In this document: positions 2,108-38,941 of the stretch, piece after piece
How the letters are laid out: the number at the start of each line of letters is the position of its first letter
How positions within the stretch are numbered: the stretch's first letter is position 1
NCBI GenBank assembly: GCA_030749435.1
Contig: JASMKH010000001.1
Location: forward strand, 62,001 to 126,000
From: Phycisphaerales bacterium
GTDB taxonomy: Bacteria; Planctomycetota; Phycisphaerae; Phycisphaerales; SM1A02
Reading direction: 5' to 3'
DNA length: 64,000 nucleotides
Notes under the pieces: model-generated
Told to the model about the DNA's origin: nothing
Seen by the model: only the letters and a program-made list of their open reading frames with translations
The model's database searches: none
Program-made: the position numbers and the translations under genes

Positions 2108-5100
2108 TCAGAGCAGCGGTCCCACTTCGTCGTGGGACTTCTCCAGATTGATGTTCATGCCGAGTCCGCGGATCTCGTGGCACAGGACATCGAAGACGAC
2201 GGGCATGCCGGCCTCGAGCGTGTTAGTGCCCTTGACCATCGAGTCGTAGATCTTGGTTCGACCCTCGACATCATCGCTCTTGACAGTGAGCAACTCCTGA
2301 AGCACGTGGGCGGCTCCGTAGCCTTCCAGTGCCCAGACTTCCATCTCGCCGAACCGCTGGCCTCCTGTGCGGGCCTTGCCACCGAGCGGCTGCTGGGTGA
2401 TGAGGCTGTAGGGGCCGGTTGCTCGAGCGTGAATCTTGTCGTCCACCAGGTGGTGAAGCTTGAGCATGTACATATAACCCAGAGACGTTGGCTGAGCGAA
2501 GGGCTCGCCTGTCCGACCGTCATACAACTGCGCCTTACCACCAAATGGCACGCGGGCGAGGAGTTCTCGCGATCCGCCGGCATCCTTGCCGGTTTCTTCG
2601 AACTGGCTCAGGCGTGAGCCGACGTGCGCATTTGCCTCGTCGATGCAGGCCAGCACTTCTTCCTCAGTCGCGCCGTCAAACACGGGCGTGATGCACTGGA
2701 ACCCGAGGACTCTGGCCGCCCAACCCATGTGCAGTTCCAGCAACTGGCCCACATTCATCCGGCTCGGTACACCGAGCGGATTGAGCAGGATGTCGACCGG
2801 GGTTCCGTCTTCGAGGAACGGCATATCTTCCTGTGGGACGATCCGGGCGACGACACCCTTGTTGCCGTGGCGGCCAGCCATCTTGTCGCCAACCGAAATC
2901 TGCCTCTTGTTGGCCAGATAGACCTTGACCATCTCGAGCACGCCGCTCTGAAGTTCGTCGCCGCGCTTCATGTGCGCCAGTCGACGCTCCTTCTCTTCCT
3001 GAACGGCTGCGATTCGAGGCCAGATCTGGTTGCGAATCGTGACGGCATCGGCTCGAACTTCCTTCGAGCCCTTGATCCACTTCTCGTTGAAGTTCTCGAT
3101 CTGCTCAATGACCACCTCGGGAATGTCCGAGGCGGCGACCTTCTGTCGGGTAGTCGGGTCGATCATCTCTGAGCCCGCGAGCTCGTTGATCATGCCGATC
3201 ATCTCGCGGAAGAGCACGATCGCCTTGAGGTTCATCTCGTCGCTAAAGGCGGCCATGTCCGACTTGAGCTTGGCCTTCTGCTCGTCGCTGAGATGCATGC
3301 GTCGACTGAAGTGCCGGGTGCCGATGACGATGCCACTGCTGCCAGCGGACACTTCGAGCGAGTCGTTCTTCACGTCTTCGCCAGCCCGGCCGAAGATCGC
3401 ATGAAGCAGTTTCTCTTCCGGTGTCAATTCGGACTTGCTCTTCGGGCTGACCTTGCCGACGAGAATGTCGCCTGGGCCGACACGTGCGCCGCACCGAATG
3501 ATTCCGCGCTCGTCCAGGTTGCGCAGCTGCTTCTCGGAGACATTCGGAATGTCGTCGGTGAACTCCTCGCGGCCGAGCTTCGTGTCACGTACTTCGACGG
3601 TGAAAGACTCGATGTGAATCGACGTGAAGTCATCGTCTCGAACCAGCCGGTCCGAAACCACGATGGCATCTTCGAAGTTGTAACCATCAAACGTATTGAA
3701 GGCGACGAGCGTGTTACGCCCGATAGCCATCTGCCCGAGATTCGTCGAGGCGCCATCGGCGATGATCTGGCCTTCGGTGACTGTATCGCCGAGGTTGACA
3801 ACCGGCTTCTGAGTCTGGCAGGTTCGCTCGTTGAGTTGGCGATACCGCTGCAGTTCATACTCGTCCGCGTTGTCGATGATGATTCGCTCTGCATCGACGG
3901 CGGTGATGGTGCCGCCGCGGCGGGCTTTGACGATCATTCCGGAGTGTTCGCCGGCAATCTGCTCCATTCCGGTCCCGACAAGCGGAGGATCGACCTTGAT
4001 GAGCGGCACGGCCTGCCGCTGCATGTTCGAACCCATCAACGCGCGGTTGGCGTCGTCATGCTCAAGGAAGGGAATCAGTGAGGCCGAGACACCGACGATC
4101 TGCTTGGGGCTGACGTCGACGTACTGCACTTCCTTTGCGGGCACAGTATTGAGTTCACCGCTGACACGGGAGAGCACGTGCTTCCCGCGAATCTTGCCGC
4201 TCTCGAGTGAGTCGGCGGTCGCCAGCACGGACTGCATCTCCTGATCGGCTCGAAGGTATTCGACATCGCCGGTTGCTTCGGATCCGTCGACTCGCTGATA
4301 CGGCGTCAGGATGAAGCCGTACTCATCGACTCGCGCGAAGATTCCAAGCGAGGCGATCAGGCCGATGTTGGTGCCTTCCGGCGTCTCGATCGGGCAGATC
4401 CGGCCATAGTGGGAGATGTGGACGTCCCGGACTTCAAAGCCGGCCCGCTTGCGGTTGAGACCGCCGGGGCCGAGCGCGGAGAGTCGTCGCTCGTGAACCA
4501 GCATTGACAGCGGGTTGGTCTGATCGACGACCTGCGAGAGCTCGCTTCGGCCGAAGAAGAAGTCGATGGCGCTGCTGATGGACTTCGAGTTCACGAGGTC
4601 GGCGATCTTTGACAGTTCATCCGGGTCCTTGACGCTCATTCGCTCCTGGACGGTGCGGCGGAGTTTCAGGAAGCCCTTGCGCATCTCTTCGACGGCGAGC
4701 TCGTCCAACGTGCGAAGGCGGCGGTTGCCGAGGTGGTCAATGTCGTCGATGTACGCCTTGTTTCGCTTTGCCCGCAGGTCGAGGACATAGCGGGTGACTG
4801 CCATGAAGTCTTCGCCTCGGAGGTGCATGACATCCTCGGGGATGTCCATGTCGAACTTCCGGTTGATGCGGAACCGCCCGACTTTGCCGAGTCGGTAGCG
4901 GTTCTCGTCGAAGAACTTCTCGCGGAACAGGGCCTTGGCCTTGTCACGCTGGGGCGGATTGCCGGGGCGGAGTCGGCTGTAGATCCGCAGGAGCGCGGCC
5001 TCGTGCTCCGTGGCGTCCGCCATGAAGTCGAGGCGTTCCATGGCGAGCGTATTGAGAATGAGCGGGTCGCTCGGGTCCTGTACGACGTTGATCTTCTTGA

Positions 5101-5890
5101 CGTTCGAGGACTGAAGCGCTTCGATCGCATCGCCGATCGGCGCGCCGACGCGGCACAACTCCTCGCCCTCGTCGGTGATAATCGTCTCAGCGGAGTAGTG
5201 CTCGGGCTCCAGTTTGGCGACAGGACACGAGATGACGTCGTAGAAGGTCTCGAGAATCGCCTCGGTACTGCTGAGCGACTCGTCCAGCGCGCGAAGGAAG
5301 ACCGTTGCAGCGATCTTCGGCGACTGGTCGATCTTCATCGCCAGAACATCCTTCTTGGTGACTTCCAGTTCGATCCAGGAGCCTCGTTCGGGGATGATCC
5401 TGGCGCTGTGCAGCGGGCGATCGCCGAGATCCTGCGTGATGCCGAAGTCTACGCCCGGTGACCGGTGCAACTGGCTGACGATGCATCGCTCCGCACCGTT
5501 GACGATGAACTCGCCGCCCCCGAGCATGATCGGGATCTCGCCGAGGTAGATCTCCTCCTCGGGAATCTCGGAGACACCCTCGCGCACGAATCGCACGCCG
5601 ATGCGGAAGGGGCGACCGTATGTCAGTCGCAGTTCCTTGCACTCATCGGGTGTGTAGCGTGGTTTGTCGAGCTTGTAGTAGAGGTACTCAAGCCGCATCG
5701 TGCCGTCATACGACTCGATGGGAAAAACCTCTTTCAGGAGACTCTCAAGCCCGATGGTCGGGTCACGCTTGAGTGTGTCCTTGTCAAGTTGGACGAAGCG
5801 TTCATACGCGGCCTGCTGTACTTCCGTCAATGCCGGGACTGGAATTGCGTCGCCGCGCTTGGAGAAGTTGCGCACCGTCATCGAAGTCAT
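2108..5890 (-). CDS. rpoB: DNA-directed RNA polymerase subunit beta
   Basis: Second-largest RNA polymerase subunit, complete at 1260 residues, within the usual range for compact bacterial beta subunits. Start ATG at 5890 has GAGGTG seven bases upstream; a second ATG three codons later is possible. The rifampicin-pocket region lies around residues 445-475 ([16 protein letters not shown], then [12 protein letters not shown]), and [16 protein letters not shown] follows near residue 495. The C-terminal block [19 protein letters not shown] is intact. In the pocket, the position equal to E. coli Phe514 is Val and the next residue is also Val; Gln513, Asp516, His526, Arg529 and Ser531 equivalents are kept. 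It has its own promoter (6024-6052) and precedes rpoC. Confidence 0.98.
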
Positions 5891-6023
5891 GCGGTCACCT
5901 CAAAGAGAGAGAAGGGAACGCGTTTTTCCATCGATCAGGCACGGAATGACCCTTGGACTGGGGGTCGTCCTGCCGAAGAAAAAACGTATTGGATGTGGGT
6001 CAAATGCCTCCGCCGAGCCGGGC

Positions 6024-6052
6024 AGTGTAGAGGAGAGGCCAAAAAACCGCAA
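6024..6052 (-). promoter_or_regulatory. Sigma70-type promoter for rpoB-rpoC
   Basis: On the minus strand TTGCGG (6047-6052) and TACACT (6024-6029) are separated by exactly 17 nt, giving a leader of roughly 125 nt before the rpoB start. The spacing matches the housekeeping consensus; the -35 matches TTGACA at 4 of 6 positions. It lies on the rpoB side of the repeat array, so rpoBC can be transcribed independently of rplKAJL. Confidence 0.65.
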
Positions 6053-6298
6053 CCGATTCTCACAAGCAAACCGCGTTCCCGAACCGAAAGACGGGGCCGA
6101 GCCATGCCGGGCTGAGGAGTTTTTGCCCTAAAGGGCTGGAGGGCAGGTATTTGGGATGTGCTGGAGGCGTGGACGGCTGCGGGCCGCCTGTGCCCGCTGG
6201 GGTGCGGCGGCATCGCACCGTCCGATAACATCTTGAAATCGAAAGCGGGTCCTTGCGAGCCGGTGGACTATCGGACGTGGGGTCGAGCCCTCTGAGCC

Positions 6299-6689
6299 AA
6301 GTTGGTGGGTGTCCAACACTCCCCTGGAGCCAAGTTGGTGGGTGTCCAACACTCCCCTGGAGCCAAGTTGGTTGGTGTCCAACACTTCACAACCCTTCAA
6401 GTTGGTGGGTGTCCAACACTTCATCTCTTCAAGTTGGTGGGTGTCCAACACTTCATCTCAACACTTCTCCTCTCTGAGCCAAGTTGGTGGGTGTCCAACA
6501 CTTCAAATTGGTGGGTGTCCCACACTTCACAACACTTCAACAATTCAACAATCCTCCAAGGTTGGTGGGTGTCCAACACTCCCCTGGAGCCAAGTTGGTG
6601 GGTGTCCAACGCTGGCAAACGCTGGCAAAGGTTGGTGGGTGTCCAACGCCTGCGCAACGCATGCGAACGCTTGCGGGTGGGTGTCCAAC
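6299..6689. repeat. Array of 11 short imperfect repeats (core GTTGGTGGGTGTCCAAC)
   Basis: Copies of the 17-nt core begin at 6301, 6334, 6367, 6401, 6433, 6483, 6507, 6561, 6594, 6631 and 6673. Seven are exact; those at 6367, 6507 and 6673 vary, and a degenerate remnant may extend to about 6740. Each core has a 5-bp inverted repeat, GTTGG and CCAAC around TGGGTGT, so either strand could fold a hairpin. Spacers vary from about 7 to 37 nt. Three of them share CTCCCCTGGAGCC, showing that larger units were duplicated. Spacers are neither unique nor constant in length, so this is not a CRISPR array. The function is unknown. Confidence 0.9.
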
Positions 6690-6751
6690 GCTGGCAAGGC
6701 CGGTGGGCGGCGGGGTGGGCGTGTTGGATGTTGGAGGTCCAAAAGCGGCAA

Positions 6752-6776
6752 GCGGGCTCCCGGACTGGGAACCCGC
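6752..6776 (-). terminator. Probable intrinsic terminator after rplL
   Basis: On the minus strand GCGGGTTCCC pairs with GGGAGCCCGC (10 bp, one G-T wobble) around a 5-nt loop, followed shortly by TTGCCGCTTTTGG. A first hairpin, GCCGCC-TGA-GGCGGC, lies at 6796-6810 just after the rplL stop. The T-run is weak, so termination may be partial. Confidence 0.5.
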
Positions 6777-6815
6777 CTGCAATGATCTGGTCTTCGCCGC
6801 CTCAGGCGGCCCGCA

Positions 6816-7229
6816 TCACTTGACGTTGACCGAGGCGCCAGCTTCTTCGAGCTTGGCCTTGAGGTCGTTGGCCTCGTCCTCGGAGACCTTCTCTTTGATG
6901 GCCTTGGGGGCGGCATCGACGAGCTCCTTGGCCTCCTTGAGCCCCAGACCGGTCGCTTCGCGGACGGCCTTGATGACTGCGATCTTCTTGTCGCCAGCCG
7001 CTTCGAGGATGACATCGAACTCTGTCTGCGCCTCGGCGCCACCAGCGTCGTCGCCGCCACCTGCCGGACCCGCCATCATGACGGCGCCGCCTGCGGCTGG
7101 CTCGATGCCGTAGGCATCCTTCATGTAGTCCGCCAGATCAACGGCTTCCTTGAGTGTCAGACCGGCGATCTCATCGCCCATCTTGGTGACCTTGGCATCA
7201 AATTCCTTGACTGCTGCTTCTTCGGACAT
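6816..7229 (-). CDS. rplL: Large ribosomal subunit protein bL12 (L7/L12)
   Basis: Stalk protein that binds translation factors on the 50S subunit; 137 residues, slightly longer than the typical 120-130. The N-terminal dimerisation helix (residues 1-40), a Gly/Ala-rich hinge (about 46-65) and the C-terminal factor-binding domain ([32 protein letters not shown]) are all present. ATG at 7229 has GGAG ten bases upstream. It lies 108 nt after rplJ in the same direction, and is followed by hairpins and the repeat array rather than directly by rpoB. Confidence 0.97.
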
Positions 7230-35528: not shown

Positions 35529-38500
35529 TCACGGGGTGCATCCGAAGTCGGCGATCGCGTTGAGCAGATCGTCAACGTCGAACTCGCCGCCGAATCCGTT
35601 GATGATGTGGAGGATGTCATCGACATCGGTGTCTCCATCACCATCGGCGTCGCCGTCGCAGCCACTGTCACACTCATCGGGGATTCCATTGCCATTGGAA
35701 TCCTCGCTCGTGCCGTTGGCGATGTCACACGCGTCGGGCACTCGGTTGAGGTTGCAGTCCTGCTCGCCCTGGTAGGCGATTGTGCCGGTTGTCGGCAACT
35801 GCCAGACGACATTGTCGTTGTCGCGGCCCTGGAAGAGGGCATCGAACATGATCTCGGCAGAGAGATCGAACGTCGTCAGGCGGGCGATCCAGACACCGTT
35901 GCGGGTGGTGCAGTCCTGGCTGATGAAGTCAGCCGGGCCACCTGCAGGGTCGTCCGGAATCACGAACCACACGCCGTTGTCGGCCGACACGTCCCCACCG
36001 TTCTCGAAGTCGGTGAAGTCGATGCCGATGTGGTTCAGACCGTTGTTGTCGTAGGGGGCACCGCTCGAATCGATTGAACCGACTCCGACACGGCTGTCCC
36101 ACTCAAGGTCCGGGACCAGATCGTAGAAACCAGGGTTCACGTCCAACGACGTTGGGCCGCCAAGGTCGTCCTGATAGAACGTACCCGTGCTCGCAATCGT
36201 CTTCTGTTGCGTCTGGTTGCCGGCAACGGCGTCGAGTCGCCATCCATCCGGCGTTTCGAGGTACACCTCCACCGTGTAGTGGGGCTGGTCCAGCGCAGTC
36301 AGGTCGACGCCAATGACGCGCCAGCCGATCGCGATTTCCTCGCCACCGACGTCACACGGGTTGGGATCGCACGAACTACCGACACCGTGGAAGGTTCCGC
36401 CCTGGATGCCGCACTCGGACTCCGAGTACTGGTGGCAACTTGCGCCGACGCAGCAAGCGCCGAGTTCGCTCGAGCCACAGGGATCACCGGCGCAGGTCGT
36501 GTCGTCACCCTGGTAGGTGCCGCCCGAATTGGTGCACGTCAGCTCATCCATGACCTCGCAGATATCGCTGAGACAGCATGCGCCCTGCGCTGGTGCTTCA
36601 CATGGATTCGGAGTGCATGGGACACCGTCACCGATGTACATGCCGCCATTTGAGGCGCAGGTGCTGGCGGAGAGGTACTCGCACGACTCACCGAAGCAGC
36701 AGGCACCTTCCTCGGGCGTTCCGAGGTCGGCGTCAATCGTCAAGGTGCCGCTTCCGGTGGCGGCCAGCCACCCGCCGAGGCGGACGTAGTAACTCTGGCC
36801 ACCCGAGACCGACACGCCGTCAATCTGAGAGTGATAGGCCTGGCAACCGGTACTGTCGTCGTAGTCGCCGTTGCAGGCGATCTGAGCCAGGCTTCCGCAG
36901 GACGCGCCTTCGTAGAGAACCATCGATGTGTCGTATGAGGACGTGTCGCAGGTCGTGAAGGTGGCTGTGCCATCGGCGGCTGGAGTCCAGACGAACCAGA
37001 AGTCCTGGCTGCCGCTCCAGTCGAGATAGGTGCCGTCGCATTGCGACTCATCGGGTTCGCCATAACCGCTGTCGGTCATCGACGAGGTGTCAAAGGCGTT
37101 GCCGCCCTCGAAGGCAATCACAGCGTCATCGCAGGTATCGCCATCTCCGCCACCACCACCGCCGCAGGGATCACCCGAGCAGTTGGTGCCGTCGCCGAGA
37201 TAGTTGCCGCCAAGGGCGCCGCACTCGGCCGCAGTGACGACTGTGCAGGACGTACCGATGCAGCATCCGCCGGTCGGATCGCCACCGCCGCACGGATCAC
37301 CCGAGCAGTCGGTGCCGTCGCCGAGATAGTCGCCGCCCTGCGAACCGCACTCGGCTGCAGTGACGACAGAGCAGGAGGTGCCGACGCAGCATCCGCCGGT
37401 CGGATCGCCACCGCCCGTGCAGTTTGCTGGGTCGCAGTCGCCGCCGTCGCAGTCGAACTCGTCGCAGTTCAGATAGATCGCAATGCCATTCCAGGAATAC
37501 GTCCCGTCATCGCAATAGCCGTCGCCGACCCAGTAGTCCGGGCAGCAGTTGCCGTTGCAGTCTTCGATTTCACCGGAAGGGCAGTCGCCGCCGCCGCCGC
37601 CGCCCGCGCACACGTTGTCACGCAAGGTTTCGAAGCCGGTGCGATCGATGCGTGTGCCGTAGTTCTCGCAGCTGTAGGAGCAGTGCGTGACGACACCGAC
37701 GATCTGGCCGTTGTACAGCAGCGATGACCCGGAGTTTCCGTACGTGACATCGAGGTTGTACATGATGGCCGTCGAATCAACACTGAGAATGGGCCCCTCG
37801 CAGAACTGTTGGATCTGCGAACGTGTGCACTCCGAATCAACGCCATAGCCGTTGACGGTCAGTGTGCCGGAAGAGGGGACCGAACCGGCGATGTCGACAA
37901 AGGCACCGTACTTCTCGTACGGAGTCTGGCCATCACCATTGGTTCCAGCTTTGACAGCGCCATAGTCGTTGCCGACGCCGCCGTTGACGCCGTCAATTGC
38001 CGTCAGGGGGAATTGGTCGCTGACCGGAGGCTGATTGGTGCTGCAGTCGCCGTTCGAAGCCGGGACGTTGAACTGAACGACATCGCCGGAGGAGATGCAA
38101 TGGCCCGCTGTGACCATGCAGGAATCTGCGTTGTAGATCGTGGCGCTGCAGCCTGTGGGCATGAGCCGGCCGAAGCGGTTGTCACTGGATGGCGTTCGGT
38201 CATCGCTTCCGCAGATGCCGCAGCTGTCGCCGCGATCTGTGGACACGGGCTCCCAGGTCGCCGTATCGATGCTGAGCCGGTTCGTGGTCAGCCCGCCTGC
38301 AATCAACTCGACGCGGAGGGTATTGCCGTTGAAGTAGGCCGATGACTCGTTCCACATCGCCAGGGCGTCGGCGTCGAGTTCCTGAACCTCGCCGTCGCGG
38401 AGGCTCGTGACTCGAATCACGGAGTTGGGGCCCAGTTTGGTGTCGGCGCCGAAGTGCAGCCTGATCCAGGCCGCGCCCTGCACCGAGATGAGGTCATCGA

Positions 38501-38678: not shown

Positions 38679-38785
38679 GTTGAGGACTCCTCTCCTGGTT
38701 TGGGTGAACCCGCCCCTTGCCATGACCCTACCACATCAGGATCGGAACGCCACCATGTTTGTTGACGCTGTGGGCGGGCCTGGCC

Positions 38786-38840
38786 CCCGGAAACCGCCCC
38801 GGAAACCCCCCGGAAACCCCCCCGGAAACCCTCCGGAAAC
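38786..38840. repeat. Five tandem CCGGAAAC repeats
   Basis: CCGGAAAC at 38786, 38798, 38809, 38822 and 38833 with C-rich spacers (period 11-13 nt). It lies in the 263-nt divergent gap between the trypsin-like gene and the cytochrome c gene. Possibly slippage-prone; no function evident. Confidence 0.7.
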
Positions 38841-38941
38841 AGCCCCGGGACGCCTTGAATCGCCGCTGCTGCCGCGGCGGTGTTGCGGTGGCGGGCGGTC
38901 GTGGACTACGCTCCCGGGCTCATGAGGGAGGCTCCGACGAC

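Follow-up and report, generated by a model that had tools for sequence, protein, structure and literature searches.

Short repeats at the ends of bacterial tyrosine transposase genes have been described before. In TIRYTs (TIRtrons), tyrosine transposase genes carry terminal inverted repeats with the consensus GGGGWSAS, some of which also occur as dimers or clusters at other genomic sites (Di Nocera 2013, PMC3733652). Twenty of the 26 TIRYTs fall into subclass 2.1, the other 6 into subclass 2.2 or 2.5 and none into subclass 2.3. REP/BIME sequences and their RAYT genes (for example, TnpAREP of E. coli) combine a Y1 HUH transposase with dispersed palindromes that have a GTAG/GTGG foot on their 5' side. 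TnpA_Y1 subclass 2.3 has a published signature (about 325 amino acids, the motifs NHYH, WE and YVDLNP, and a HuH-Y distance of about 110; Quentin 2018, PMC6006769), while for subclasses 2.1 and 2.3 neither automatic nor manual searches yielded REP-like sequences (PMC6006769), which for subclass 2.3 is a reported absence and not a defining trait.

The locus analysed here is a repeat array in a Phycisphaerales bacterium, at positions 6298..6697 (+) of a 64,000-nucleotide stretch of DNA (the window), in the spacer between rplL and rpoB. It comprises 11 putative terminal repeats of the TGGGTGTCC type in a single orientation. Scanning the window for GTTGGTGGGTGTCCAAC with up to two mismatches gave 11 matches, all on the + strand between 6301 and 6689 (8 exact, 1 with one mismatch and 2 with two mismatches), against a mean of 0.03 and a maximum of 1 in shuffled windows, and the eleven-copy 17-nt array of the preliminary description was recovered in full. 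Exact copies are units 1 (6301..6317), 2 (6334..6350), 4 (6401..6417), 5 (6433..6449), 6 (6483..6499), 8 (6561..6577), 9 (6594..6610) and 10 (6631..6647), all on the + strand, as are unit 3 (6367..6383; one mismatch, loop TTGGTGT) and units 7 (6507..6523) and 11 (6673..6689), each with two mismatches and a broken stem. The 5-bp inverted repeat GTTGG/CCAAC, previously ascribed to every unit, is intact in 9 of the 11 and broken in those starting at 6507 and 6673. As had been noted, one spacer recurs three times within the array (CTCCCCTGGAGCC), and start-to-start spacings are irregular, ranging from 24 to 54 nt; a CRISPR-like array was set aside on account of this irregular spacing and the recurring spacers. 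The array lies antisense to the operon, with the repeats on the + strand and rplL and rpoB on the - strand, and there is no transposase gene nearby.

The repeat belongs to a genome-wide family. The core GGTGGGTGTCC has 98 exact copies in the 1.8-Mb assembly, compared to 0 for a reversed-pattern control, and the 9-mer TGGGTGTCC has 128 copies, compared to 6 in its control. Core copies are clustered into more than a dozen arrays, of which the window's is one, and the core is constant between arrays whose spacers differ. The sequences flanking the units are more similar within arrays (0.57) than between them (0.37; 0 of 500 label shuffles), a pattern that fits seeding of sites followed by local tandem duplication. 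When arrays were examined for avoidance of coding regions, open reading frames ran through them in this high-G+C genome. When the literature was searched for earlier descriptions of the core among bacterial repeats, only chance matches came back, for example to primers. The preliminary description had named a mobile genome-wide repeat family as one possibility and suggested counting the core across the genome and in relatives; the clustered genomic copies and the linked transposase described below support this possibility. Many copies were seen only in this genome and a few relatives.

Three 312-amino-acid Y1 transposase genes were found in the assembly, each situated between clusters of the repeat, with '-' copies on the left and '+' copies on the right, about 1.2 kb apart. 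This outward orientation is independent of gene direction (3/3 genes), and the first repeat copy lies 79–85 nt from the start and 202–208 nt from the stop of the gene. All three genes match Pfam Y1_Tnp above its gathering score (E values of 5e-6 to 7e-5) and, weakly and below its cut-off, NCBIfam REP_Tyr_transpos. The proteins display the motifs NHLH, FWE and YIDLNA, with a HuH-Y distance of 117 by residue numbers. The best hit in a scan of named genomes (L079, Phycisphaerales bacterium SS_bin_71) gave an AF2 model with a pLDDT of 84. The solved structure that this model matched best was 4ER8, a REP-associated tyrosine transposase bound to a REP hairpin, with a Z score of 11.4 across 159 residues; a sequence search of solved structures produced a weak match alone (2f4f, E = 0.63). 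The HUH motif, the catalytic tyrosine and the Y1 fold are all present, the fold being that of the L079 model.

The scan of named genomes identified at least 581 relatives, mostly from gammaproteobacteria and also from Verrucomicrobia and Planctomycetes. Homologues are about 325 amino acids long and have NHxH, FWE and YVDLNP motifs and a HuH-Y distance of mostly 112, and those from gammaproteobacteria match the subclass 2.3 signature fully. Length, NHxH, WE, YVDLNP and a HuH-Y distance near 110 are shared with the published subclass, as is abundance in Alteromonadales and Chromatiales. The difference lies in the repeats: subclass 2.3 was published without REP-like sequences, whereas we observed a consistently outward-facing TGNNTGTC and arrays of it in a planctomycete.

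Motif counts were made on the best 80 of the at least 581 loci, from gammaproteobacteria, Verrucomicrobia and Planctomycetes, a set that includes close relatives, such that counts are not independent events. In an unbiased count across these 80 loci, the top gapped 8-mer was TG..TGTC (TGNNTGTC), pointing outward at 76 loci and inward at 8. Within 300 bp of the genes there were 192 outward copies versus 9 inward copies, distributed over 76 of the 80 loci; past about 600 bp the outward excess is lost and the two orientations are similarly frequent. In 66 of the 69 loci with an upstream copy, the first such copy lies 58–107 nt before the start codon, and the first downstream copy is mostly 160–235 nt past the stop. 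On the protein tree, loci that share the two inner letters of TGNNTGTC tend to group together (19 changes versus 24.8 after shuffling, 0/200); near copies contribute to this pattern, which is what coevolution of protein and motif would be expected to produce.

Among homologues from the same family and order as the window's genome (35–50% identity), most have other short repeats on their sides, likewise facing outward, such as TGCGTGTCC, GTGCCTGTCC and GTGTGTGTCC. Motifs that deviate from TGNNTGTC flank the genes of G088, a member of this order that is only distantly related, and those of some members of the family. G088 has 13 homologous genes, several of them with long and complex arrays of GATCTGCCGGGGCCTGGACACC and similar sequences (L059, L065, L071 and L077). 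Genome-wide, an excess of the bare 8-mer was clear in one homologue genome (207 copies versus 33 in the control) and slight or absent in the others checked. Little excess was seen in most gammaproteobacterial genomes checked, and so multiplication into arrays is not general.

The points at which homology ends suggest that the motif delimits a mobile unit. We compared 18 pairs of related elements at different loci, selected by eye using the tree and shared species names; in roughly half of them, homology on the left stopped 0–15 nt outside the motif. In a congener (G002), a 28-codon remnant of the gene persists with the motif about 85 nt upstream. In another genome (G027), two near-identical gene copies (L056 and L062) occupy different loci and their homology ends inside repeat arrays, suggesting that they may have moved recently. 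Several gene-less elements with '-' and '+' copies close together (L039, L041, L042 and L043) resemble miniature REPIN- or MITE-like forms. A different 16-nt tandem repeat, AGGGTGTCCGTGCACG, was also found near a TGGGTGTCC array (L037:7967-8055).

On the basis of these sequence comparisons, we consider the window array to be probably (at a probability of about 0.78) a detached and locally amplified cluster of the terminal repeat of an element whose Y1 HUH transposase is of the TnpA_Y1 subclass 2.3 type. The repeat is most likely the terminal sequence of subclass 2.3 elements that would have been multiplied into arrays in this genome. In the mechanism that we propose, the transposase would bind TGNNTGTC in single-stranded DNA, where the word perhaps forms the tip of a weak hairpin, and would cut close by; now and then an end or a gene-less element would be transferred and seed a new site, and the seed would then enlarge in place through tandem duplication.

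Replication slippage could also have produced the array as a simple tandem repeat, with the transposase linkage being secondary, and both the irregular tandem structure with its repeated spacers and the higher flank similarity within arrays are what slippage would leave behind. Yet it accounts for growth and not for a common core, which stays the same from array to array although the spacers differ and which is found around homologous transposases of several phyla with a fixed orientation and distance, making this explanation unlikely. Somewhat less likely again is that the arrays are host-domesticated binding sites under selection, serving chromosome organisation or regulation with the transposase as the binding protein. 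The core is strongly constrained while its flanks vary, and RAYTs of other bacteria have been described as domesticated (PMC8049555), but the arrays are patchy, with high copy numbers only in this genome and a few relatives, and the congeners lack the array in the same spacer.

A terminal repeat of a subclass 2.3-type element would have partial counterparts in both described repeat systems. As in TIRYTs, inverted outward copies are found at both ends of the gene and homology often stops there; GGGGWSAS includes GGGGACAC, which is close to the reverse complement of GTGTCC. The window repeat nevertheless differs from the TIRYT motif, reading TTGGACAC, two mismatches from GGGGWSAS. We regard the TIRYT group (PMC3733652) as the nearest prior report; subscription papers and supplements were outside the search, so a link to subclass 2.3 may have appeared there. 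With the REP/BIME system of TnpAREP, the present repeat family and its transposases share the Y1 HUH transposase fold (4ER8 being the best match) and a linked gene that has multicopy short repeats on both sides, with further copies scattered through the genome (here, 98 copies and three genes). Unlike REP sequences, the repeat has no GTAG/GTGG foot 5' of a palindrome, its constant part being TGGGTGTCC; the conserved word lies in the loop while the stem is weak and variable; and the copies form direct-repeat arrays facing outward on both sides of the gene.

A conserved hairpin was considered as the defining feature of the repeat and set aside. In this genome, pair counts revealed no left-right covariation of the stem that encloses the core, and folding was not weakened when the flanks of one array were exchanged for those of another. 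Homologous loci display weak palindromy above that of shuffled flanks (3.86 versus 3.37, 0/300), and a hairpin may assist recognition. Judged by these comparisons, the conserved part appears to be the TGNNTGTC word and not the stem. A broader proposal, which we put forward tentatively and hold to be rather doubtful at present, is that subclass 2.3 Y1 transposases recognise TGNNTGTC in the loop of a weak, variable hairpin and not a foot adjoining a conserved one, and that this end sequence breeds as stand-alone arrays in some lineages. If true, this would mean that single-strand transposases can recognise their targets by a different logic, and the arrays would be a new kind of repeat in bacteria.

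The setting of the array was compared across eight congeners. The rpoB frame occupies 2108..5890 (-), its N-terminus being found in 8/8 congeners, and the rplL frame, aligned with rplL of congeners, occupies 6816..7229 (-). Downstream of rplL and outside the repeat lies a 14-bp terminator-like hairpin (6748..6780, -; fold z = -4.0), and hairpin-forming sequence is present in the same place 3' of rplL in congeners. Upstream of rpoB is a promoter-like sequence, TTGCGG-17-TACACT (6024..6052, -), which an automatic sigma-70 scan did not list and which falls in a stretch common to all congeners. The terminator-like hairpin and separate rpoB promoter that the preliminary description had placed on either side of the array thus both appear to be conserved in the genus. 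Its view that this spacer is normally short did not hold: the spacer measures 925 nt here and about 386–652 nt in the congeners where it was measured (in G008 it was not, rplL having been missed by the search used). The array is absent from this spacer in 7 of the 8 congeners; the only exception (G003) has a few copies that form a short inverted group and not an array like the window's. In G008, a single isolated GGGTGTC lies upstream of rpoB.

Since rpoB seems to have a promoter-like stretch of its own and rplL a terminator-like hairpin, the genus may transcribe rplJL and rpoBC as separate units (window 5891-6815). Insertion of the array between the two would have been tolerated because both were left intact. 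Folding of the array RNA was not better than that of shuffled sequences (z = -1.1) and no Rfam family matched at the locus; with the array also lying between the post-rplL hairpin and the rpoB promoter-like stretch, outside the expected rpoB leader, a role in attenuation is unlikely, as is local regulation of rpoB more generally. An rplL-rpoB attenuator would be expected to form a transcribed, structured leader that is conserved in place, whereas this array is absent in congeners. The idea that a series of hairpins in the transcript serves attenuation, as suggested earlier, or RNA stability, which had in its favour the inverted repeat kept in 9/11 units and the position between ribosomal and polymerase genes, is the least probable of the explanations weighed here and very improbable given the strong hairpin and promoter-like stretch enclosing the array, its unexceptional folding, its absence from the congeners' spacer, a stem that varies among members of the repeat family within this genome and the 98 core copies genome-wide.

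The array looks like mobile-element debris and not like a switch for the RNA polymerase genes, which would explain a puzzling array beside an essential operon. Beyond this locus, a widespread transposase-like class that was published without partner repeats gains a candidate recognition sequence in TGNNTGTC, and the protein-motif pairs, which vary naturally at its two inner letters, offer material for studying target choice. Two other repeats were observed in the window: an imperfect 126-nt tandem repeat of about 2.1 copies at 37156-37415, possibly coding, and a short tandem repeat of CCCCCGGAAAC-type units with a period of 12 or 23 at 38784-38848.
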